Shown here: positions 33,011 through 49,558 of the stretch, piece by piece
How positions within the stretch are numbered: position 1 is the first letter of the stretch
Layout: every line of letters begins with the position of its first letter
From: Ureibacillus thermophilus
Lineage (GTDB): Bacteria; Bacillota; Bacilli; Bacillales_A; Planococcaceae
DNA length: 64,000 nt
Assembly (NCBI RefSeq): GCF_004331915.1
Contig: NZ_CP036528.1
Location: forward strand, 1,316,567 to 1,380,566
Direction of reading: 5' to 3'
Translations under genes and position numbers: made by a program
The notes under the pieces: model-generated
The model's input: only the letters and a program-made list of their open reading frames with translations
What the model was told of the DNA's origin: nothing
Databases searched by the model: none

Positions 33011-33048
33011 GATACACAGAAATTTAATACATGCGGCTGACAGGTGTT

Positions 33049-33292
33049 GACGGAGAAAGTATTTTTTGTCCGTGGCAATTATAGCGATCCGAGGATGGTG
33101 GAAGCTCGGACAAGCGGCAAAAAAGAAAATCACTCCCGAGCCAAATCACTGAAAGAACAGTAAGTGATTTCGTCTACACGGCGTTACAGTGTCAAGAGGC
33201 AGCGTCGAAATGCTTTTCTTCGGCGTTGTAAAGAAGGGTGGTACCACGGGTAATCGTTTCTCGTCCCTATGGGATAGAGAAACTTTTTTTAT
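33049..33292 (+). promoter_or_regulatory. T-box riboswitch (tRNA-Ile sensor) of ileS
   Basis: Classical T-box leader. Stem I begins GACGGAGAAAGTA, and the stem I apical AG-type motif GAGGATGGTGGAAGCTC is present. The likely specifier codon ATC (isoleucine) is at 33129-33131. The T-box sequence AAGGGTGGTACCACG is at 33234-33248 and is followed by a terminator with stems GTTTCTC (33256-33262) / GAGAAAC (33277-33283) and seven T. Uncharged tRNA-Ile is expected to favour the antiterminator and switch on ileS. It fills most of the 392-base gap between divIVA and ileS. Confidence 0.95.
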
Positions 33293-33358: not shown

Positions 33359-36121
33359 ATGGTAGAGTATAAAGATACGTTGTTAATGCCGAAGACCGAT
33401 TTCCCGATGCGAGGAAATCTACCGGTAAACGAACCAAAAATTCAAGCAAAATGGGAAGAAATGGATATTAATCAACTTGTATTAGAGCGTACGAAAGGCC
33501 GTCCGGAATTCGTATTGCATGATGGTCCTCCATATGCAAACGGTGATATTCATATTGGACATGCGTTAAATAAAATCATTAAAGATATGATTAACCGCCA
33601 CCGTTCTATGACAGGCTATCATGTGCCATATATTCCTGGTTGGGATACTCACGGACTACCAATCGAGCATGCCTTGACGAAAAAAGGCGTGAACCGTAAA
33701 GAAATGTCGGTTGCTGAATTCCGTAAACTCTGTGAAGAGTATGCCTACGAACAAATTGAAAACCAAAAAGCGCAATTTAAGCGTTTGGGAGTTCGCGGCG
33801 ATTGGAAAAATCCTTATGTCACATTAACCCCTGAATTTGAAGCCCGTCAAATTGAAGTGTTTGGCCGCATGGCAGAGAAAGGATATATATACAAAGGACT
33901 AAAACCTGTTTATTGGTCTCCATCCTCTGAATCTGCGTTGGCAGAAGCAGAAATTGAATATAAAGATGTGAAGTCTCCTTCCATTTATGTAAGTTTTGAA
34001 ATCAAAGATGCAAAAGGCGTTGTACCTGAAGAGGCCAAGTTCATTATCTGGACAACAACACCTTGGACAATTCCAGCCAACCTAGGAATTTCAGTCAACC
34101 CAGAATTTACGTATGCTGTTGTGAAAGTGGATGGCAACTTATATATCATTGCAAAAGAATTGATTGAAAATGTTTCAAAAGAAATTGGATGGGAACAAGT
34201 TGAAATTGTGCAAGAAGTAAAAGGACAACAATTGGAATATATTGTAGCCAAACATCCATTCTATGACCGCGATTCTTTAGTAATGGTTGGGGAACACGTT
34301 ACGCTCGATGCCGGTACTGGATGCGTTCACACAGCGCCTGGCCACGGGGAAGACGACTATATCGTCGGTAAAAAATACGGTTTAGATGTATTAAGCCCAA
34401 TTGATGACCGTGGTTGCTATACAAGTGAAGCGCCAGGATTTGAGGGCATGTTCTATGATGATGCCAACAAAGTCGTGACTGAAAAATTAAAAGAAGTGGG
34501 CGCCTTATTAAAATTAGGTTTCATCACCCACTCCTATCCACATGACTGGCGCACGAAAAAACCGGTGATTTTCCGTGCTACACCGCAATGGTTCTGTTCC
34601 ATCGAGCCGTTCCGCGATCAATTATTGGAAGCGATTGAAAATACAACATTTACGCCAAACTGGGGTAAAATCCGCCTTTACAATATGATTCGCGACCGCG
34701 GCGACTGGTGTATTTCCCGTCAACGGGCTTGGGGTGTGCCAATTCCAGTATTCTATGCGGAAAACGGTGAAGAAATCATTACGCCAGAAACAATCGCCCA
34801 TGTGGCAAAATTATTCCGTGAACATGGTTCAAACATTTGGTTCGAAAAAGAAGCGAAAGAATTATTGCCAGAAGGATTTACTCATCCGGGAAGTCCAAAC
34901 GGCAAATTTACAAAAGAAAAAGATATTATGGACGTTTGGTTTGACTCCGGTTCCACTCACCAGGGCGTGCTTGTAGAACGCGGCATGAAATATCCTGCTG
35001 ACCTTTATTTGGAAGGTTCTGACCAATATCGCGGATGGTTTAACTCATCTCTCATTACATCTGTTGCCATCAACGGTTTCGCACCTTATAAAGGCATCCT
35101 GTCTCACGGTTTCGTACTGGATGGGGAAGGCCGTAAAATGAGTAAATCTCTTGGAAACGTAATTGCCCCTGAACAAGTAATGAAACAATACGGTGCGGAT
35201 ATTCTTCGCTTGTGGGTGGCATCTGTAGACTATACTGGCGATGTACGGATTTCCATGGATTTGTTAAAACAAATTTCCGAAGTGTATCGTAAAATCCGCA
35301 ACACGCTTCGCTATTTGCACGGTAACTTATTTGATTTTGATCCGAAAAAAGACCGCGTTCCTTACGAAAACTTACGCGAAGTGGATCAATATATGTACAT
35401 GCGTTTGCAGGAAGTATTAAAACAAGTGCGTGCAGCTTATGACCGCTATGATTTCTCAGCTGTATATCATGCTATCAACAACTTTGTATCCGTTGAACTG
35501 TCTGCCTTCTATTTGGATGTGGCAAAAGACGTGGTTTATATTGAAGCACCAACAAATCCTGCTCGCCGTGCAATGCAAACAGTAATGTATGACAGCTTGT
35601 TGACATTGCTAAAAATCTTAACGCCAATTATTCCGCATACAACGGATGAATTATGGTCTTACTTAAACGAAGAAGAAGTATCTGTGCAATTAACAGACTT
35701 CCCAGAAGTGGATGAGCGCGAGAACTTCAAAGAGTTGAAAGAAAAATGGGGCAAAGTGATGGATATTCGCGATGAAGTATTGAAAGCTCTTGAAGAAGCG
35801 CGAAATGAAAAAGTTATAGGTAAACCATTGGATGCAAAAGTAGTTGTTTATGCAGATGACGAAAACGTATTAGCGCTATTGAACGATGACAAAGTTGATT
35901 TCAAACAAATTACCCTTGTTTCTCAATTTGTCGTTGCCGGCAGTCGAAAAGATGCACCAGAAAATGCTATTGCATTAGAGAATACATCTATCGTTGTAGA
36001 AAAAGCGGATGGAGGAAAATGTGAACGCTGCTGGTCTTATTCAGAAACGGTTGGCCAAAATGAAACACATTCTACATTGTGCGCCCGCTGTGCAGAAATT
36101 GTAATCAATCATTACGAATAA
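33359..36121 (+). CDS. ileS: isoleucine--tRNA ligase
   Basis: Class I aminoacyl-tRNA synthetase charging tRNA-Ile, with an editing domain that removes valine. The 920-residue protein has the HIGH motif HIGH at 65-68 ([13 protein letters not shown]), the CP1 editing domain with [12 protein letters not shown] and the [16 protein letters not shown] segment, the KMSKS motif at 593-597, and a C-terminal zinc site (CERCWSYSE and CARCAE). This is the eubacterial, mupirocin-sensitive type by layout. ATG at 33359 follows AAGGAGGAAAC. Expression is controlled by the T-box leader. Confidence 0.98.
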
Positions 36122-36903: not shown

Positions 36904-37811
36904 CAGTAACAATCACGATTGAAGCAGAATATGCAGGAGAACGACTTGATAAAGCATTATCTACTATTCATGAGGATTGGTCGCGAACGCAAATCGCGGG
37001 CTGGATTGAAGAAGGGCTTGTCATGGTAAATGGCAAGGAAGTGAAGGCAAAATATAAAGTGAAAGAGGGGGATGTCGTTGAAATTGAAGTTCCAGAACCG
37101 GAAGAGCTTGAAGTCATCCCTGAAAATTTGGATTTAGATATCGTGTATGAAGATGAAGACGTTATTGTAGTGAATAAACCAAAGGGAATGGTGGTGCACC
37201 CTGCCCCTGGACATATGACTGGGACGCTCGTGAATGGACTGATGTATCATTGCAAAGATTTATCCGGCATCAATGGCGTGCTGCGTCCAGGAATTGTCCA
37301 TCGCATTGATAAAGATACTTCCGGTTTGTTGATGGTTGCCAAAAATGACATGGCTCATAATGGACTTGTGGAACAACTTGTGAATAAAACGGTGACGCGG
37401 AAGTATACGGCATTGGTTCACGGCCATATTCCTCATAATAAAGGGACGATTGATGCGCCAATTGGCCGTGATCCGAAAGACCGCCAAAAACAGGCCGTTG
37501 TTGATAATGGAAAAGAAGCGATTACTCATTTCCAAGTGTTGGAACGATTTGGTGGGAAATATACATTGCTGGAATGTAAGCTAGAAACAGGACGCACCCA
37601 TCAAATCCGCGTTCATATGAAATATATCGGATATCCATTAGTAGGGGATCCAAAATATGGTCCGAAGAAAACGATTGATTTTGGCGGCCAAGCATTGCAT
37701 GCTGGCGTATTAGGATTTATACATCCTAGAACGAAAGAATATTTGGAATTTGAAGTACCTTTGCCTGAAGATTTTATGAATTTACTTGAACAATTAAGAA
37801 AAGAATGTTGA
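36900..37811 (+). CDS. rluD: 23S rRNA pseudouridine synthase, RluD type
   Basis: Pseudouridine synthase of the RluA/RluD family (B. subtilis YlyB position). The 303-residue protein has an N-terminal S4 RNA-binding domain (about 14-75) and a catalytic domain with the signature GIVHRIDKDTSGLLMVAK, whose Asp in HRIDKDTSG is the nucleophile. The C-terminal part has LETGRTHQIRVHM and GDPKYG. The start overlaps the lspA stop. Its own stop codon lies within the -35 of the pyr promoter. Confidence 0.93.
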   Translation: MTVTITIEAEYAGERLDKALSTIHEDWSRTQIAGWIEEGLVMVNGKEVKAKYKVKEGDVVEIEVPEPEELEVIPENLDLDIVYEDEDVIVVNKPKGMVVHPAPGHMTGTLVNGLMYHCKDLSGINGVLRPGIVHRIDKDTSGLLMVAKNDMAHNGLVEQLVNKTVTRKYTALVHGHIPHNKGTIDAPIGRDPKDRQKQAVVDNGKEAITHFQVLERFGGKYTLLECKLETGRTHQIRVHMKYIGYPLVGDPKYGPKKTIDFGGQALHAGVLGFIHPRTKEYLEFEVPLPEDFMNLLEQLRKEC

Positions 37812-37836
37812 CTTAGAGAGTAAATAGTTCTATACT
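37808..37836 (+). promoter_or_regulatory. sigma-A promoter of the pyr operon
   Basis: TTGACT (37808-37813), 17-base spacer, TATACT (37831-37836). The -35 overlaps the end of rluD. Transcription would begin about 30 bases before the PyrR-binding stem. Confidence 0.9.
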
Positions 37837-37865
37837 TTACAACAGTAAAAATTAAATAGGGAATA

Positions 37866-38055
37866 CCTTTAATGGCAGTCCAGAGAGGCTGAAAAGGTAA
37901 AAGCGTGTTGGTGAAGAGAAGCTGATGCCCTATCCTTATTCTCTAGCTTTTCTAATAGGGGCATAGTATATCTTCATATGGACAGAATTATTATACCAAC
38001 ATAGTATTTTACTGTAATTTCAACCTCTTAAGCTGACGCTTAGGAGGTTTTTTTG
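37866..38055 (+). promoter_or_regulatory. PyrR-dependent attenuator, pyr operon leader
   Basis: The PyrR-binding anti-antiterminator is a stem-loop with CAGTCCAGAGAGGCTG at 37876-37891, matching the consensus ARUCCNGNGAGGYU exactly, within an outer stem CCTTT/AAAGG. It is followed about 130 bases later by a terminator with a 12-base stem AACCTCTTAAGC (38022-38033) / GCTTAGGAGGTT (38038-38049) and a T-run. UMP-loaded PyrR should favour termination before pyrR. Confidence 0.93.
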
Positions 38056-38072
38056 TGCAATCAAAATCATGA

Positions 38073-38639
<567 letters not shown>

Positions 38640-38661
38640 AAAGTGATTGCGGGGAAACAAT

Positions 38662-39996
38662 ATGTCAAATCAAGTAATCGATATTCATGAAAAACCGTCA
38701 GGCGGGCAGTTGATTACATTAAGTTTTCAACATATGTTCGCAATGTTTGGATCAACGATTTTAGTGCCACAGCTTGTTGGACTAAGTCCTGCGATTGCAC
38801 TGTTAACAAGTGGAATTGCAACCATCGTCTTCCTTTTAGTAACACAATTTAAAGTGCCCGCCTACTTAGGTTCATCTTTTGCTTTTATTACGCCGATGTT
38901 ATTAGTATCTGGCGGGTTGGATCCAGAGGGGGCTGCCGTAAATCCTGGAAATGCAATGATTGGCGCAATGGCAGTCGGACTTGTATACGCAATTGTTTCA
39001 TTATTAATTTACAAAAGCGGGTATAAGTGGATTATGAGATTATTGCCAGCTGTTGTGGTAGGGCCGGTCATCATGGTAATCGGACTTGGACTAGCTGGAA
39101 CAGCAGTAGATATGGCAATGAATATTTCTGTGGAACAAGTAAATCCAAATACAGGAGAAACTGAACTGGTTAAACAATATAGCGGTTGGCATTTTTCAGC
39201 AGCATTAGTGACATTGTTTGCAGCGATTATTTTCAACGTGTACTTTAAAAATATTTTAAGCGCGATGCCAATTTTGCTTGGATTAGTGGCAGGATACATT
39301 TACTCCGCAATCATCGGCATCGTTGATTTTACGAAAGTGAAAGAAGCATCATGGTTTGCTTTGCCAGACTTTTTAATCCCTGGTGTGCATTATGAGTTTC
39401 ATGTGACTACAAACATCTTGCTCGCAATGGTTCCAATCGTGATTGTAACGATTTCGGAACATATCGGACATCAATTGGTTTTAGGAAAAATCGTTGAACG
39501 AAATTACATTAAAGATCCAGGTTTGCACCGTTCAATCCTTGGGGACGGACTAGGAACATTTGTCAGTGCGTTAATCGGTGGTCCTCCAAAAACGACTTAC
39601 GGTGAAAATATCGGGGTATTAGGAATTACAAGAGTATATTCTGTGTACGTGATTATGGGTGCAGCATGCATCGCCATCTTGCTTTCATTCTTCGGTAAAG
39701 CGATGGCTTTAGTGCAAACAATTCCTACTTCAGTACTTGGAGGCATTTCCATTCTGCTATTCGGAATTATCGCTTCCAGCGGTCTTCGAATGATTGTGGA
39801 CAATAAAGTAGATTTTGGCAAAAACCGGAACATGGTTATAGCTTCAGTTATTTTAGTCGTTGGAATCGGCGGTGCAGCAATCCGCATTTCAGAGGCTTTT
39901 TCAATCGAAGGTATGGCACTTGCTGCAATTATTGGTGTAATTTTAAACTTAATCCTTCCTGGAAGGGATAAAAATGTAGAAGAGTTTGACGAATAA
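38662..39996 (+). CDS. pyrP: uracil permease
   Basis: Uracil-proton symporter of the nucleobase/ascorbate transporter (NCS2) family in the cytoplasmic membrane. The 444-residue protein has about 14 membrane helices and the motifs QHMFAMFGSTILVP, TISEHIGHQLVLGK and GPPKTTYGENIGVL. The ATG at 38662 gives the family start (MSNQVIDIHEKPS) behind GCGGGG; the frame is open five codons upstream. It follows pyrR by 22 bases with no attenuator between them. Confidence 0.96.
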   Translation: MSNQVIDIHEKPSGGQLITLSFQHMFAMFGSTILVPQLVGLSPAIALLTSGIATIVFLLVTQFKVPAYLGSSFAFITPMLLVSGGLDPEGAAVNPGNAMIGAMAVGLVYAIVSLLIYKSGYKWIMRLLPAVVVGPVIMVIGLGLAGTAVDMAMNISVEQVNPNTGETELVKQYSGWHFSAALVTLFAAIIFNVYFKNILSAMPILLGLVAGYIYSAIIGIVDFTKVKEASWFALPDFLIPGVHYEFHVTTNILLAMVPIVIVTISEHIGHQLVLGKIVERNYIKDPGLHRSILGDGLGTFVSALIGGPPKTTYGENIGVLGITRVYSVYVIMGAACIAILLSFFGKAMALVQTIPTSVLGGISILLFGIIASSGLRMIVDNKVDFGKNRNMVIASVILVVGIGGAAIRISEAFSIEGMALAAIIGVILNLILPGRDKNVEEFDE

Positions 39997-40018
39997 ACAA
40001 TTTAATCATCCTTTAAGA

Positions 40019-40112
40019 TTTGTCCAGTGAGGCAAAAAAGGAGACGAATGGCAAGCGCATACTGCATACTTGTCATCCCTCCTAAGCCTTTTAAATAGTG
40101 ATAGGAGGAAAT
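40019..40112 (+). promoter_or_regulatory. PyrR-type RNA element with Shine-Dalgarno-sequestering hairpin before pyrB
   Basis: A PyrR-type stem TTTG-TCCAGTGAGG-CAAA occupies 40019-40036 and keeps the UCCNGNGAGG core. Instead of a terminator, CCTCCTA (40078-40084) is perfectly complementary to TAGGAGG (40102-40108), the pyrB ribosome site. A competing pairing exists: AGGC and AAGGAG at 40030-40043, overlapping the 3' half of the PyrR stem, can pair with CTCCTAAGCCT at 40079-40089 and free the ribosome site. This predicts PyrR-controlled translation of pyrB. Confidence 0.65.
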
Positions 40113-40116
40113 TGAC

Positions 40117-40986
40117 ATGAAAAATTTGCTTTCAATGGAATATTTAACAAATGATGAGATAATGTCGATTATCGAGCGTGCTAGGGAATTTGAACAAGGG
40201 GCTGAACCGAAGTTGGACCGCTCCCATTATGTGGCCAATTTATTCTTTGAACCCAGCACTCGAACAAAAACGAGTTTCGAAATGGCGGAACGGAAAATCG
40301 GTTGTACAGTGATTCCTTTTGAAGCGGGATTTTCTAGCATGTTAAAAGGGGAAACATTGTACGATACGGTGAAAACTTTAGAAATGATTGGCCTCGATGC
40401 AGTGGTCATTCGGGCGAAAGAGGATGAATATTATCGCGAACTGCTTGAAGGAATTAATGTCTCTGTCATCAATGCAGGCGATGGAACAGGCCAGCATCCT
40501 TCCCAAAGTTTGCTGGATTTATACACGATTTATAAAGAATTCGAACGATTTGATGGACTGACGGTGACGATAGTTGGGGATATTGCCCATAGCCGCGTGG
40601 CAAAATCCGATGCCATTGCATTACGGAGGCTTGGTGTGAATGTCAATTTCCTTTGTCCTCCAGAGTGGGCTGGCAATTTTGAGGCGCAGTATTCTTGGGA
40701 TGGGATTCTTGAAGAAAGTGATGTCATTATGCTGCTCCGCATTCAACATGAACGACATGATGTGCCGTTTTCAAAAGAACTTTATCATCAACAATATGGA
40801 TTAACGGTTGAACGTGAAAAACAAATGAAAGAACATGCTATCATCATGCATCCTGCACCGGTGAACCGAGATGTGGAGATTGCTTCAGAATTAGTGGAAT
40901 GCAAGCGTTCAAGAATTTTCCATCAAATACACAATGGCGTATTTGTTCGAATGGCAATTCTGGAAACAATATTGAAGGAGAGATAA
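40117..40986 (+). CDS. pyrB: aspartate carbamoyltransferase catalytic subunit
   Basis: Second step of UMP synthesis: carbamoyl phosphate plus aspartate to carbamoyl aspartate. The 289-residue protein has the carbamoyl-phosphate motif [13 protein letters not shown], the loop [19 protein letters not shown], and the aspartate domain with [11 protein letters not shown] and MHPAPVNRD. No pyrI regulatory subunit is present, as usual in Bacillales. ATG at 40117 follows GGAGGAAATTG, whose ribosome site can be hidden by a hairpin. Confidence 0.98.
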
Positions 40987-40988
40987 CA

Positions 40989-42263
40989 GTGGCAACATTT
41001 ATCGAAAATATCAAAATGTTAAATGAACAAGGGAAATTGATTGAAACAACAATTACCATTGACGGTGGAAAAATTGCTGTCATCGGTGGATCCAAGCCAG
41101 AAGGAGCACAAGTGATTGATGGAAAAGGTAATTTCGTATCCCCAGGGTTTGTAGATGTGCATGTTCATTTACGGGAGCCGGGATTTGAGCATAAAGAAAC
41201 GATTGCCACAGGAACTCGCTCTGCGGCAAGAGGCGGATTTACAACAATTTGTGCGATGCCAAATACAAAACCTGTACCAGACTCTGTGAAAAACCTTGAA
41301 TATGTGAAAGGATTAATTCAAAAAAGCGCTGTTGTCCGAGTACTTCCTTATGGTTCCCTTACAATGGATGAAAAAGGAGAAAAGCGCACTAATATCGCAG
41401 AACTAAAAGCCCATGGTGCCGTTGCTTTTTCAGATGATGGGGTGGGTGTCCAACTGGCCTCAACTATGTACGAGCAAATGCTGGATGCGGCAAAGGTTGG
41501 CGCAGTCGTTGTTGCACACTGTGAAGATAATTCTTTAATTTACGGCGGCGTCATGCACGAAGGAAAACGCAATAAAGAACTTGGGCTTCCAGGCATTCCA
41601 AGCATTTGTGAATCGGTGCAAATCGCGCGGGACGTTTTGCTTGCCGAAGCTGCCGGTGCAAGATATCATGTATGCCATGTTTCCACGAAAGAATCCGTCC
41701 GTACGGTAAGGGATGCGAAAAAAGCAGGGATTCGCGTGACGGCTGAAGTTTGCCCACACCATTTGCTGCTTGAAGAAATGGATATTCCAAGCGATGATGC
41801 CAACTGGAAAATGAATCCGCCGTTGCGCTCATCAGAAGATCAAAAAGCATTAATCGAGGGATTGCTGGATGGCACAATTGATTGCATCGCCACAGACCAC
41901 GCACCACATACCCAGGAAGAAAAATGCTGCGGCATGGTGGGTGCGCCGTTCGGAATTGTCGGTTTTGAGACAGCTTTTCCTCTTCTCTTTACAAAATTTG
42001 TCGAAACTGGCATCTTTACTTTAAAGCAATTAGTGGATTGGATGACGATCAAGCCGGCTGAAATCTTCAATCTTCCATATGGAAAAATTGAGGTAGGAGC
42101 TTCTGCGGATTTGACAATCATTGATTTTAATAAAGAAAAAACAATTGATGCCAATGAATTTTATTCAAAAGGCCGCAATACACCATTCAATGGCTGGAAG
42201 GCAAAAGGCTGGCCGATTATGACAATCTTTGAAGGAAATGTGGTTTATAAGGAGGAAGAATGA
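40989..42263 (+). CDS. pyrC: dihydroorotase
   Basis: Zinc-dependent cyclisation of carbamoyl aspartate to dihydroorotate. The 424-residue protein is a type I dihydroorotase of the amidohydrolase superfamily with the metal motifs [31 protein letters not shown] and [10 protein letters not shown]. The GTG at 40989 (reading [11 protein letters not shown]) is preferred, behind AAGGAGAG; an upstream frame running into pyrB is not homologous. Its end overlaps the carA start. Confidence 0.97.
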
Positions 42264-43360
42264 TGAAAAAGCGTCTCTTAATTTTAGAAGATGGGACAGT
42301 ATTTGAAGGAGCAGCGTTTGGAAGTGATCGAGCTAGTCAAGGAGAGGTTGTATTTACAACAGGGATGACTGGCTATGAAGAAACGCTTACAGACCCTTCT
42401 TTTTACGGTCAAATTGTAACATTCACTTATCCGCTTATCGGCAACTATGGAATTAACAGCGATGATTTTGAATCCATCGCTCCTGTTGTCCGCGGTGTGG
42501 TTGTGAGAGAATTAACGAAAATTCCTTCCAATTTCCGCTCAGAAATGACATTGGATGAATATTTAAAAAGTCATGATATTCCTGCAATTGAAGGAATCGA
42601 TACACGGAAATTAACTCGCATCATCCGTTCAAAAGGTGCTGTACGTGCCATGTTGACTCAAGCGGACGAGGAAGTAAACATAGTTGAAATTGTGAAACGA
42701 TTAAATGAAACGCCATATTTAAAAAATCATGTACGAGAAGTTTCTTCCAAAATGCCATTTCCAAGTCCGGGCAGAGGAAAACGGGTTGTTCTTATGGATT
42801 TTGGAATGAAAAAAGGCATTTTGCGGGAGTTAAATAATCGCCATTGCGATGTGCTTGTAGTTCCTTATAATACACCAGCTGAGAAAATTTTAAGCTTCCG
42901 TCCAGAAGGAATTTTATTGTCCAATGGACCAGGAAACCCTGCCGATGTGACAGAAGGTATTGAAACAATTAAACAATTAATCGGGAAAGTCCCAATGTTT
43001 GGCATTTGTTTAGGACATCAAATCATTGCGCTTGCTTGCGGTGCAAAAAGTTTTAAATTGCCTTTCGGACATCGAGGCGCCAACCATCCGGTGAAAAATC
43101 TTCAAACAGGCATCGTTGAAATAACTTCACAAAACCACGGCTATGCCATCGATGCAAACTCATTAGAAGGTACGGATTTAGAAATTACCCATGTTTCATT
43201 AAATGATGGTACAATTGAAGGATTAAAACATAAAAAATATCCAGTATTTTCTGTACAATTCCATCCGGAAGCATCACCAGGTCCGGAAGATTCAAACTAT
43301 TTATTTGATGAATTCATTAAATTAATGGAACAAGCAGGGGAGGAAAAACAACATGCCTAA
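42260..43360 (+). CDS. carA: carbamoyl-phosphate synthase small subunit (pyrimidine-specific)
   Basis: Glutaminase subunit that feeds ammonia to CarB. The 366-residue protein has the N-terminal CPSase small-chain domain ([26 protein letters not shown]) and a class I glutamine amidotransferase domain with the nucleophile Cys in [10 protein letters not shown] and the His/Glu pair in [13 protein letters not shown]. The start is ATG 42260 or 42263, overlapping the pyrC stop; the carB start overlaps its end by eight bases. Its place in the pyr operon marks it as the pyrimidine-regulated (pyrAA) copy. Confidence 0.97.
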
Positions 43361-46300
43361 ACGTACTGATATCGAAAGCATTTTAGTGATTGGTTCAGGT
43401 CCAATCGTCATTGGACAAGCAGCAGAGTTCGACTATGCCGGCACGCAAGCTTGTCTTGCTTTAAAAGAAGAAGGATATAAAGTAATTCTTATAAACTCAA
43501 ACCCTGCAACGATTATGACAGATACTCAAATTGCAGACAAAGTTTATATAGAGCCAATTACTTTAGAATTTGTTTCCCGAATTTTAAGAAAAGAAAGACC
43601 AGACGCAATATTACCAACTCTCGGCGGACAAACTGGATTAAATATGGCCATTGAGCTTCAAAAATCCGGCATTTTAGATGAATTAGGAATTGAAATTTTA
43701 GGAACAAAATTGGAAGCTATCCATAAAGCGGAAGACCGTGAAATGTTCCGCCAATTAATGTATGAATTGGGTGCTCCTGTTCCGGAATCCGATATTGTGC
43801 ACAGTGTGGCAGAAGCAAAAGCCTTTGTTGAAAAAATCGGCTATCCAGTGATTGTTCGACCAGCCTTTACTTTAGGGGGTACTGGAGGCGGAATTTGCAA
43901 CAATGAACAAGAGTTGGAAGAAATCGTGTCAAGCGGTTTGAAATACAGCCCAGTAAAACAATGTCTACTTGAAAAATCCATTGCCGGCTATAAAGAAATT
44001 GAATTTGAGGTAATGCGCGACTCAAAAAACAATGCGATTGTTGTATGTAGCATGGAAAACGTGGACCCTGTCGGCATCCATACTGGGGATTCCATCGTTG
44101 TTGCGCCTGTCCAAACATTAACAGATCGGGAATATCAAATGCTGCGCAAGATCTCATTAGATATAATCCGCGCATTAAAAATCGAAGGTGGATGCAACGT
44201 TCAATTAGCCCTTGATCCAAACAGCTTCAACTACTATGTGATTGAAGTGAACCCGCGGGTATCCCGTTCATCTGCTTTAGCATCCAAAGCAACAGGTTAC
44301 CCAATTGCAAAAATTGCGGCAAAAATTGCGGTTGGTTTAACGTTGGATGAAATTAAAAATCCTGTTACAGGTACTACATATGCAGACTTCGAACCTGCTA
44401 TCGACTATGTAGTGGCAAAAATCCCGCGCTGGCCATTTGATAAATTTGAATCAGCCAAACGGAATTTAGGTACGCAAATGAAAGCGACAGGGGAAGTAAT
44501 GGCTTTAGGACGCACGTTTGAAGAAGCCATTTTAAAAGCGGTGCGCTCCCTTGAAACAGGCCACATTCATATTGATTTAAAACATGCGGATGAACATGAT
44601 GACAACTGGGTGGAAAAACGCATCAAAAAAGCGGGAGATGAACGATTATTCTTCATCGCTGAAGCCATGCGCCGAGGCATTTCGCCTGAACAAATCCACG
44701 AATGGTCGCGAATTGATTTATTCTTCTTGTACAAACTGAAAAATATTATCGAAATGGAATCTGAATTGCAAGAAAATAAAATGGATTTAGAAGTTTTAAG
44801 AAAAGCGAAACGCATGGGCTTTGCGGACAAGAAAATTGCTGAGCTTTGGGGTATGGACGCAAGAGAAATTTACGAATTGAGAAAAGCAAACGGCATCGTT
44901 CCAGTTTATAAAATGGTTGACACTTGCGCTGCAGAGTTTGAATCAGCAACGCCTTATTATTACGGCACGTATGAAGAAGAAAATGAATCCATCGTGAGTG
45001 AAAAACCTTCTGTCATTGTGCTTGGTTCCGGTCCAATCCGAATTGGACAAGGCATCGAGTTCGACTATGCTACAGTGCACTCTGTTTGGGCAATTCAAGA
45101 AGCAGGTTATGAGGCGATCATTATCAACTCCAACCCTGAAACGGTTTCAACAGACTTCTCGATTTCGGACAAACTTTACTTCGAACCGTTAACAATCGAA
45201 GACGTTATGAACATTATCGATTTAGAAAAACCGGTTGGCGTAGTCGTACAATTTGGTGGACAAACTGCCATTAACTTAGCGGATAAATTGGCTGCCCATG
45301 GCGTAAAAATCTTAGGTACATCCTTAGAAAACATCGACCGTGCAGAAAACCGCGATTTATTTGAACAAGCATTAAAAGAATTAGAAATTCCACAGCCTGA
45401 AGGGGATACGGCGGTTTCATTGGATGAAGCATTAACGATTGCGAAAAGAATCGGCTTCCCAGTATTAGTTCGTCCTTCTTACGTACTTGGCGGCCGTGCA
45501 ATGGAAATTGTTTATAACGAAGATGAATTGAAACATTATATGGAAAATGCGGTAGAAGCTTCACCAGACCATCCAGTATTAATTGACCGCTACTTAACAG
45601 GTAAAGAAGTGGAAGTGGATGCCATTTCCGATGGCGAAAATGTGCTCATCCCTGGAATTATGGAACATATTGAACGCGCAGGGGTGCACTCCGGAGACTC
45701 CATTTCCGTATATCCGCCTCAAAGCTTAACAAAAGAACAAATCGATACGATTGTGGATTACACAACACGTTTAGCAAGAGGGTTAAATATTGTGGGATTA
45801 ATGAACATTCAATACGTCATTTCCGGCGGCAATGTATATGTCATTGAGGTTAACCCACGTGCATCTAGAACAGTGCCATTTTTAAGCAAAATCACAAACA
45901 TTCCAATGGCCAACGTTGCAACGAAAGTCATTTTAGGCAAATCTATTGTGGATCAATGTTATGAAACTGGCCTTGTGGAACCGAAAAAAGGTGTATATGT
46001 AAAAGTGCCGGTATTCAGCTTTGCAAAACTTCGCCGCGTAGACATCACCCTTGGACCTGAAATGAAATCAACAGGGGAAGTTATGGGTAAAGATGAAACA
46101 TTAGAAAAAGCATTGTATAAAGGTTTAGTTGCTTCTGGTATGAAAATTCAGCCATATGGAACAGTGCTCTTTACGGTGGCAGATAAAGATAAAGAAGAAG
46201 CAGTAAGCCTTGCGAAACGTTTCCAAGCTGTCGGCTACCGCATTATGGCGACAGAAGGAACAGCGAAAAAATTTGAAGAGGCTGGCATCCGTACAGAAGT

Positions 46301-46546
46301 TGTCGAAAAAATTGGCGGCAAAGGCAAAACATTAGTGGATGTTATCCAAAACGGCGAAGCGCAAGTGGTCATCAATACATTAACAAAAGGAAAACGGCCT
46401 GCCCGCGACGGTTTCCGCATTCGTCGTGAAGCGGTTGAAAACGGCATTCCTTGCTTGACTTCATTGGATACAGCGAACGCGTTAATTACAGTGATTGAAT
46501 CCATGACTTTTGCTATTCAAGAAATGCCGAAATCGGAGGTATATGC

Positions 46547-46550
<4 letters not shown>
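43353..46550 (+). CDS. carB: carbamoyl-phosphate synthase large subunit (pyrimidine-specific)
   Basis: Makes carbamoyl phosphate from bicarbonate, ammonia and two ATP. The 1065-residue protein contains two homologous ATP-grasp halves; each starts with a GSGPIxIGQ..EFDYA motif (about residues 13 and 560) and the first has [12 protein letters not shown], the second [11 protein letters not shown]. The C-terminal MGS-like domain (about 930-1065) is the allosteric region. Length is normal for the Bacillales pyrAB type. ATG at 43353 follows AGGGGAGG, with overlaps to both neighbours. Confidence 0.98.
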
Positions 46551-48227
<1,677 letters not shown>

Positions 48228-48228
<1 letters not shown>

Positions 48229-48926
48229 TGAATAAACCGATTATTGCTTTAGATTTTCCAGGGGAACAAGAGGTTTTCCAATTTTTGAACCATTTTGAAG
48301 AGAAGTTGTTTGTTAAAGTGGGCATGGAGCTGTTTTATCAAGAAGGTCCAGATATCGTTCGAAAAATTAAGGATTTAGGACATGACATTTTTCTCGATTT
48401 AAAATTACACGATATTCCGAATACGGTGAAATCCGCTATGAAGGGGCTAGCTCGGTTGGGCGTGGATTTAGTCAATGTCCATGCAGCTGGCGGCAAGCAA
48501 ATGATGGAAGCAGCTCTTGAAGGGTTAGAGGCAGGAAGTGTTGGGAAAAGACCGTTGCTCATTGCAGTAACCCAGTTGACTTCTACTACGGAAGAACAAA
48601 TGCAAAAAGAGCAAAAAATTCCTTTAACATTGTTGGAGTCGGTGCTGCATTATGCCCAGCTGACAAAAGAAGCCGGTTTGGATGGCGTCGTTTGTTCGGT
48701 TCATGAGGCAAAGCAGATTGCGGAACGTTGCGGGGAAGCATTCCTTCGTGTAACGCCAGGGATTAGACTTTTAGGCGGAGATGCCCATGACCAAAAACGG
48801 GTGGCAACCCCTGATTTTGCCCGGGAAAACGGTTCATCTTACATCGTAGTTGGACGGGCAGTGACGAAAGCGGAAAATGTAGTAGAGGCTTATCAAGAAG
48901 TATGTCGACTTTGGGAGGGAAAATAA
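48228..48926 (+). CDS. pyrF: orotidine 5'-phosphate decarboxylase
   Basis: Final step: OMP to UMP. The 232-residue TIM-barrel protein has the catalytic Asp-Lys-Asp array in [15 protein letters not shown], substrate-binding [10 protein letters not shown], and the phosphate loop [23 protein letters not shown] at 48228 follows AAGGAGTCACC. Its TAA stop overlaps the pyrE ATG (TAATG). Confidence 0.98.
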
Positions 48927-49558
48927 TGGCGATCGAAAAAGAAATTGCCCATATCATGTTAAAAGTGGGGGCTGTCGAATTGAACCCGACGGATTTATTC
49001 ACATGGGCAAGTGGAATTAAATCCCCAATCTATTGCGATACACGGCTTACAATTTCGTATCCAGAAGCAAGAAAACAAATTGCAAATGGATTGGCAGAGA
49101 AAATCAAAGAACATTTCCCTGAAACGGAAGTGGTTGCAGGAACAGCCACAGCCGGCATACCCCATGCGGCATGGGTGAGCGACCTGTTGCAGCTGCCGAT
49201 GGTGTACGTGCGTTCCAAACCAAAAGATCATGGCCGCGGCAATCAAATCGAAGGAAAAATTGAGCCGGGGCAAAAAGTGGTTGTGGTGGAAGATATCATT
49301 TCCACTGGCGGTTCATCCTTGACTGCGGTTGAAGCGCTGAGAGAAGCAGGTTGCGAAGTGGTTGGGGTTGTATGTGTTTATACATACAATTTGCCAAAAG
49401 CGGAAGAGACATTTGAAAAAGCCGGTGTGAAATATGTAAGCCTAACAAACTTCGATTATTTGATTGAAGCCGCAAAGGAAACCGGCGCAATCAAATCGGA
49501 AGATATCCCGTTCCTAAAAAATTGGCATGAAGATTTGAAAGCGGGCAGATTAAAATAA
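48926..49558 (+). CDS. pyrE: orotate phosphoribosyltransferase
   Basis: Adds ribose phosphate from PRPP to orotate to make OMP. The 210-residue protein has the PRPP-binding motif [15 protein letters not shown] and [12 protein letters not shown]. The ATG at 48926 ([12 protein letters not shown]) follows GGGAGGG inside pyrF; an upstream frame start at 48902 adds eight non-homologous residues. Last gene of the operon. The order F then E matches B. subtilis. Confidence 0.98.

Follow-up and report, generated by a model that had tools for sequence, protein, structure and literature searches.

Introduction

The pyr operon of Bacillus subtilis carries three attenuator sites, AR1-3. In Mycobacterium smegmatis, a PyrR-dependent repression of translation has reportedly been described (by Fields and Switzer, in 2007), in which PyrR is said to bind directly beside the first start site. 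PyrR in B. subtilis is described as acting on the pyr operon by transcription attenuation, and TRAP, in the same organism, as acting by termination in the trp leader and on translation for trpE and trpG (PMC7430163). In sequestor/antisequestor riboswitch platforms, a ligand-stabilised element blocks the antisequestor, and the ribosome-binding site (RBS) is hidden (PMC2258182). For the pyrR RNAs of Streptococcus pneumoniae, mechanisms are predicted and unverified (PMC10942264). A search of the open-access literature, which omits most subscription papers, returned nothing recognisable by title, opening of the abstract, or selected passages as translational PyrR control in Bacillota, and none was recognised in passages of PMC10942264, PMC4347634, PMC4342826, PMC3766115, PMC6296669, and PMC13273304.

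The spacer between pyrP and pyrB of Ureibacillus thermophilus, analysed here by computation within a window of 64,000 nucleotides (the whole stretch of DNA under consideration; all pyr operon features given below lie on its + strand), carries a PyrR element in which no terminator is found. We put at roughly 0.7 the probability that the ancestor of a small clade within Ureibacillus converted the output of a PyrR attenuator from termination to translation, PyrR-UMP now hiding the Shine-Dalgarno sequence (SD) of pyrB.

Results

The pyr operon and its two PyrR elements

The genome is a single contig of 3.02 Mb, and the pyrB of the window shares 89% identity with its counterpart in Ureibacillus thermosphaericus DSM 10633. 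The coordinates of the open reading frames (ORFs), with NCBIfam for part of the names, give the order pyrR-pyrP-pyrB-pyrC-carA-carB-pyrK-pyrD-pyrF-pyrE. By sequence, the product of pyrR (38094..38639), a regulator and uracil phosphoribosyltransferase, is a standard PyrR protein (NCBIfam NF003549, 258.7 bits; PDB PyrR chains, for example 1a3c, E 3.6e-74); pyrP (38662..39996) matches the NCBIfam uracil permease and NCS2 models, scoring slightly below the cut-off of the former, and the 22 bases between the two genes hold no PyrR element on inspection of the sequence. The regulated gene pyrB (40117..40986) encodes aspartate carbamoyltransferase (NCBIfam NF002032, 349.6 bits). It is followed by pyrC, identified by NCBIfam, and by six genes which, from their translations, we take to be carA, carB, pyrK, pyrD, pyrF, and pyrE (together 40989..49558); the ORFs from pyrC to pyrE overlap or almost touch, and their translation is plausibly coupled to that of pyrB. 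Elsewhere in the window, a T-box leader (33038-33271; RF00230, 110.5 bits) lies upstream of a large ORF (33359-36121), presumably ileS.

The first PyrR element of the operon is an ordinary attenuator before pyrR (37862..38056), matching RF00515 at 58 bits, over the gathering score, and with an intrinsic terminator of 12 pairs (38022-38049) followed by a T run, as located by a terminator scan. Read by eye, this terminator is kept in the window and in all four clade relatives (L124, L125, L126/L002, and L127), in agreement with the proposal of the sequence-only reading that pyrR-pyrP is controlled by termination.

The second element, in the spacer between pyrP and pyrB, begins with a predicted PyrR-binding hairpin at 40010..40041, supported by its sequence, by its folds, and by a sub-threshold match to RF00515. 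The motif TTTG-TCCAGTGAGG-CAAA, reported earlier at 40019-40036, is there as described, but the hairpin extends beyond it: below the upper stem (40019-40022/40033-40036), which closes the loop UCCAGUGAGG (40023-40032), there is an additional lower stem of CCTTT (40010-40014) with AAAGG (40037-40041). Sequence and folds give it the features of the RF00515 hairpin, with a UCCNGNGAGG loop, a G-C closing pair, and an internal bulge. The U-A pair beside the loop, which had been taken to be flipped as a local compensation, shows the arrangement usual in the family, 85 of 101 elements having TA, so that this explanation is rejected. RF00515 matches 40006-40116 at 37.7 bits (E 9.1e-4 in a search of 401 bases), below its gathering score of 54 bits; since the model contains a terminator hairpin and a T run, both absent here, terminator-less sites of this kind may be under-annotated. 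A hairpin-only model, R1, built from 20 hairpins drawn from the window's family, from Bacillus, and from the window, finds the hairpin in the whole genome at E 5.9e-5, a value that is not independent, the hairpin being among the training sequences. Exact matches to TCCNGNGAGGC number 5 in the genome, against 4 for the backward control, and two of the five lie in the pyr operon, the same operon that encodes PyrR. Overlapping the 3' arm of the hairpin is AAGGAG, the SD of a possible 16-codon leader ORF (40048..40098); of 17 elements examined in the genus, 15 have an ATG at a constant spacing of 4 from AAGGRG, opening ORFs of 2-47 codons.

Competing folds around the pyrB Shine-Dalgarno sequence

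The sequence CCTCCTA at 40078..40084, here called the anti-SD arm, is complementary to the pyrB SD TAGGAGG at 40102..40108, both strings and coordinates being as first reported, and pairs with it in the OFF fold. The same arm belongs to an antisequestor (40029..40090), which constitutes the ON fold and which is the minimum-free-energy structure of a transcript truncated ahead of the SD. The sequence-only reading had anticipated a competing pairing at this place; it resolves into three helices, joining 40029-40055 with 40069-40090: GAGGC (40029-40033) with GCCTT (40086-40090), AGGAG (40039-40043) with CTCCT (40079-40083), and ATGGCAAG (40048-40055) with CTTGTCAT (40069-40076). PyrR hairpin and antisequestor overlap at 40029-40041, antisequestor and sequestor at 40079-40083, and the fold computation bears out that at either switching point one alternative excludes the other.

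In the OFF fold the pyrB SD is paired, the pairing probability of its GGAGG being 0.99-1.0 at 37 C and 0.87-0.97 at 55 C. A helix of seven pairs with the SD arises in 70 of 5000 dinucleotide shuffles; within the window, pyrB alone of 43 SD-bearing starts of ORFs of at least 100 amino acids reaches seven pairs, the other 42 having five at most. The folding z-score of the spacer is a moderate -1.7, with 12 of 200 shuffles equally good.

The balance between the folds shifts as the RNA lengthens. Cut before the SD, the RNA of the window favours the antisequestor over a fold with the PyrR hairpin forced, at -21.3 versus -19.4 kcal/mol (37 C) and -13.1 versus -9.2 kcal/mol (55 C); PyrR would tip this small early difference. 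The sister elements L030, L031, and L032 show an advantage of 1.9, 0.3, and 0.6 kcal/mol at 37 C, and of 3.8, 3.6, and 1.0 kcal/mol, respectively, at 55 C; the cut RNA of L032 forms the upper antisequestor helices only, and that of L033 prefers the PyrR hairpin over the antisequestor at 37 C. At full length, the PyrR hairpin with a hidden SD reaches -30.1 kcal/mol versus -23.0 kcal/mol with a free SD at 37 C, and -15.7 versus -13.1 kcal/mol at 55 C, an advantage for the SD-hidden fold of about 7 and 2.6 kcal/mol. Because the full-length free RNA thus prefers the hidden SD, the ON state would be kinetic or held by ribosomes.

Terminator-less elements upstream of pyrB form a single clade

Neither a consensus terminator scan of 37700-40300 on the + strand, which returned nothing except the terminator before pyrR, nor a fold-based caller found a terminator within the pyrP-pyrB spacer of the window; a hidden intrinsic terminator is thereby rejected, the earlier statement that no hairpin with a T run exists in the spacer stands, and the element lacks the output of a PyrR transcription attenuator.

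The survey of relatives comprised 117 regions upstream of pyrB: 27 from named genomes, 25 from the genus (out of 25 genus genomes searched), and 65 from the rest of the family, these last lying among 225 genomes searched, five being returned and 60 chosen among the matches listed. The rows L001, which repeats the window, and L054-L058, which are weak and represent other carbamoyltransferases, were left out of the counts. The 117 loci represent 109 distinct contexts, of which 101 have a PyrR element upstream of pyrB, none being found in the other eight (L010, L063, L064, L068, L070, L112, L117, and L122). In L063 and L010, pyrB sits close behind pyrP, and the second PyrR element has probably been lost.

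A hairpin followed by a T run is present in 96 of the 101 elements. For one of these (L044), the fold-based caller chose a hairpin inside an insertion, the PyrR terminator, GCCTCGCAAGCTTGCGAGG followed by a T run, being visible on reading; insertions of about 100-200 bases separate the PyrR terminator from the pyrB SD in L006, L012, L015, L017, and L044, and a repeat-like stretch, GCCAAGGCGAAATTGAT, is common to those of L012, L015, and L017, with a variant in L006. The five elements without a terminator are those of the window (L029), of three sister species (L030, L031, and L002, which is the same as L032), and of L033. In a pyrB tree of 39 rows they form one clade with 99/98 support, placed among terminator-bearing relatives and outgroups; L063 was labelled terminator-bearing in this tree though no PyrR element was found in it, which does not affect the clade.

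Remnants of the terminator persist to different degrees within the clade. L033 retains a decaying hairpin (-9.7 kcal/mol, tail AACTTTTA), accepted as terminator-like by one consensus scan, the same that detects the terminator of the relative L036; L032 retains a hairpin of five pairs without a T run; and in the window the second half of the terminator is gone, with GCC, which pairs in the antisequestor, retained. The simplest history suggested by these sequences is that the terminator was lost within this clade, with the steps still visible.

Conservation and covariation of the switching arms

Between pairs of L029-L032, only 37-45% of the fourfold-degenerate sites of pyrB are identical (95-104 sites per pair), yet the switching parts of the spacer hardly vary: 34 of 36 columns are invariant in the PyrR hairpin, 11 of 13 in the first arm of the antisequestor hairpin, 18 of 19 in the second arm, which includes the anti-SD and GCC, and 10 of 11 around the SD. 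The corresponding values are 1/8 and 3/13 for the two loops, 4/12 for the 5' flank, 3/7 for the stretch from the SD to the start, 79/131 for the end of pyrP, and 44/60 for the beginning of pyrB. Arms that are near-invariant against such diverged fourfold sites indicate that the element is probably functional rather than a relic.

The sequence-only reading had pointed to covariation in relatives as a check, and the antisequestor does covary among 25 elements of the genus, 24 of them distinct, with a score of 0.220 against at most 0.113 for slid controls. In 88.0% of cells it is paired, the slid controls reaching 46-61%. Six of its 18 pairs show changes on both sides; all six lie in the hairpin helix, itself paired in just 75.0% of cells, and the two lower helices are almost invariant. 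In a shuffle control that takes no account of kinship, none of 500 shuffles reaches the covariation score and 11 of 500 reach the count of doubly changed pairs; the doubly changed cells number 17, and one slid control (-2) has 18. The sequestor stem (40078-40084/40102-40108) is invariant in the clade, and its SD side is also constrained by the ribosome, so that this stem lends no covariation support either way.

PyrR elements across the Bacilli

Searched with R1, 71 Bacilli genomes yielded 90 matches, spread over 50 of them. With the window and a sister genome excluded (G021; four matches, L167 and L168), a rescan of the fetched loci yielded 87 elements, one of them new. The caller, which accepted a terminator only if it lay within 150 bases and reached at least -9 kcal/mol, flagged 10 of the 87 as lacking one; six of these have a terminator on reading (L163, at a distance of about 300 bases; L189, a weak one of -7.5 kcal/mol; L190, L196, L209, and L229), bringing the total to 83 of 87 (77 by caller, six by reading).

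The four without a terminator (L180, L181, L182, and L220) all belong to one family, f16. Here the PyrR hairpin continues, at its 3' arm, into an apparent SD belonging to the following gene, which encodes a PyrP-like permease; this SD reads AAGGAG or AAGGGAG and lies eight bases upstream of the ATG. The hairpins occupy the pyrR-pyrP junction (L180, 2207-2250; L181, 2201-2244; L182, 2205-2248; also in L220 and L237-L254), and in L180-L182 the element before pyrR retains its terminator. By exact pattern search, the AAGGAG arrangement occurs in 18 of 398 class genomes, all of genus g34. To go by these sequences, Bacilli probably also have a second, independent translational PyrR site that differs in mechanism, being direct.

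The anti-SD itself may have a simple origin. The antiterminator strand AAGGRG resembles an SD, and its partner CCTCC therefore resembles an anti-SD; eight terminator-bearing loci (L003, L005, L034, L047, L048, L050, L051, and L052) in fact have 7-8 contiguous pairs, G-U allowed, between the CCTCC arm and the pyrB SD. To judge from these sequences, the conversion may have needed nothing beyond loss of the terminator. It is a more tentative thought, which we rather doubt, that PyrR attenuators of this kind carry a built-in anti-SD, such that even terminator-bearing relatives in this genus could hide the pyrB SD on read-through and repression at two levels would be ancestral; if true, terminator loss would be a one-step conversion, and escape to purely translational control a repeatable route.

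A proposed mechanism and its rivals

In the mechanism that we favor, the nascent RNA would form the antisequestor at low UMP, ahead of synthesis of the SD, leaving TAGGAGG free and pyrB translated. At high UMP, PyrR-UMP would hold the hairpin at 40010-40041 and thus block the antisequestor, freeing CCTCCTA to pair with the SD; pyrB, and probably the closely packed genes downstream, would then go untranslated. The element before pyrR would continue to act by termination. The terminator kept in the pyrR leader and the spacer in which none is found together suggest that PyrR probably uses two outputs in one operon: it would end transcription ahead of pyrR and sequester the SD ahead of pyrB.

The hairpin might instead gate the leader ORF at 40048: its ribosomes would keep CCTCCTA unpaired, stop beside the pyrB SD, and couple to pyrB, and with PyrR bound the leader ORF would be blocked and pyrB silent. 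This would account for the persistence of the ON state, and the ATG does stand at a constant spacing of 4 after AAGGRG in all five clade elements and in 10 of 12 other genus elements (chosen from 20); moreover, the leader ORFs of L029-L032 (16, 19, 12, and 19 codons) end 1-22 bases upstream of the pyrB start, a proximity that may be due to chance, and in family f16 the equivalent hairpin arm appears to serve a real gene as its SD. We nevertheless consider it unlikely, as neither peptide nor frame nor length is conserved, with a 7-base indel between the window and its sisters; the SD-to-ATG spacing is short, the leader SD is paired in the antisequestor fold, and the ATG sits in a covarying stem, where RNA structure alone could account for it.

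Control might also be exerted beyond the spacer, PyrR hiding the SD and the untranslated pyrB mRNA then being terminated by Rho or degraded, so that regulation would look transcriptional. Such a sequence of events is known for other systems, and a spacer without an intrinsic terminator leaves the route available; intragenic Rho polarity is weak in B. subtilis, however, and we hold this explanation to be very improbable. The lowest probability of all goes to the element being a decaying relic, with pyrB freed from PyrR and the operon regulated by the leader attenuator only: the lost terminator, the sub-threshold Rfam score, and the relic hairpins of L032 and L033 would fit, but near-invariance of the PyrR loop, of the two antisequestor arms, and of the anti-SD, where fourfold sites approach saturation, speaks against it.

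Discussion

If the SD is sequestered as proposed, a protein-sensing RNA switch has moved from transcriptional to translational output while its sister element in the same operon stayed transcriptional. Within one genus, the relatives form a series from an intact terminator through a decaying hairpin to a terminator gone, so that a change of mechanism in expression platforms becomes directly testable with closely related sequences. Translational PyrR sites may moreover be under-called by the Rfam PyrR model, which includes the terminator.

With M. smegmatis the window would share the action of PyrR on translation; there PyrR reportedly binds beside the start site, whereas in the window it is predicted to work by way of an antisequestor, from about 60 bases upstream. 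The PyrR hairpin of the window ends at 40041 and the SD begins at 40102, so that PyrR would not sit on the SD itself; that direct arrangement does occur in family f16, with the pyrP SD in the hairpin arm. With the B. subtilis attenuators (RF00515; PMC7430163), the window has in common the PyrR hairpin, the position between pyrP and pyrB, and a three-way competition between an anti-antiterminator, an antiterminator, and an output hairpin; it differs in that its output hairpin hides the SD, with no terminator or T run found. In sequestor/antisequestor riboswitch platforms, too, blocking of the antisequestor hides the RBS (PMC2258182), but the sensor of the window is a protein-binding hairpin and not an aptamer. 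The likeness to TRAP lies in one RNA-binding repressor acting at both levels; protein and RNA are different, and the two sites in the window are of the same element kind, the translational one descending from a terminator version. PyrR-mediated translational repression (in M. smegmatis) and a repressor acting at both levels (TRAP) are thus already known, and on our best reading what is new is a PyrR attenuator turned translational within a genus.
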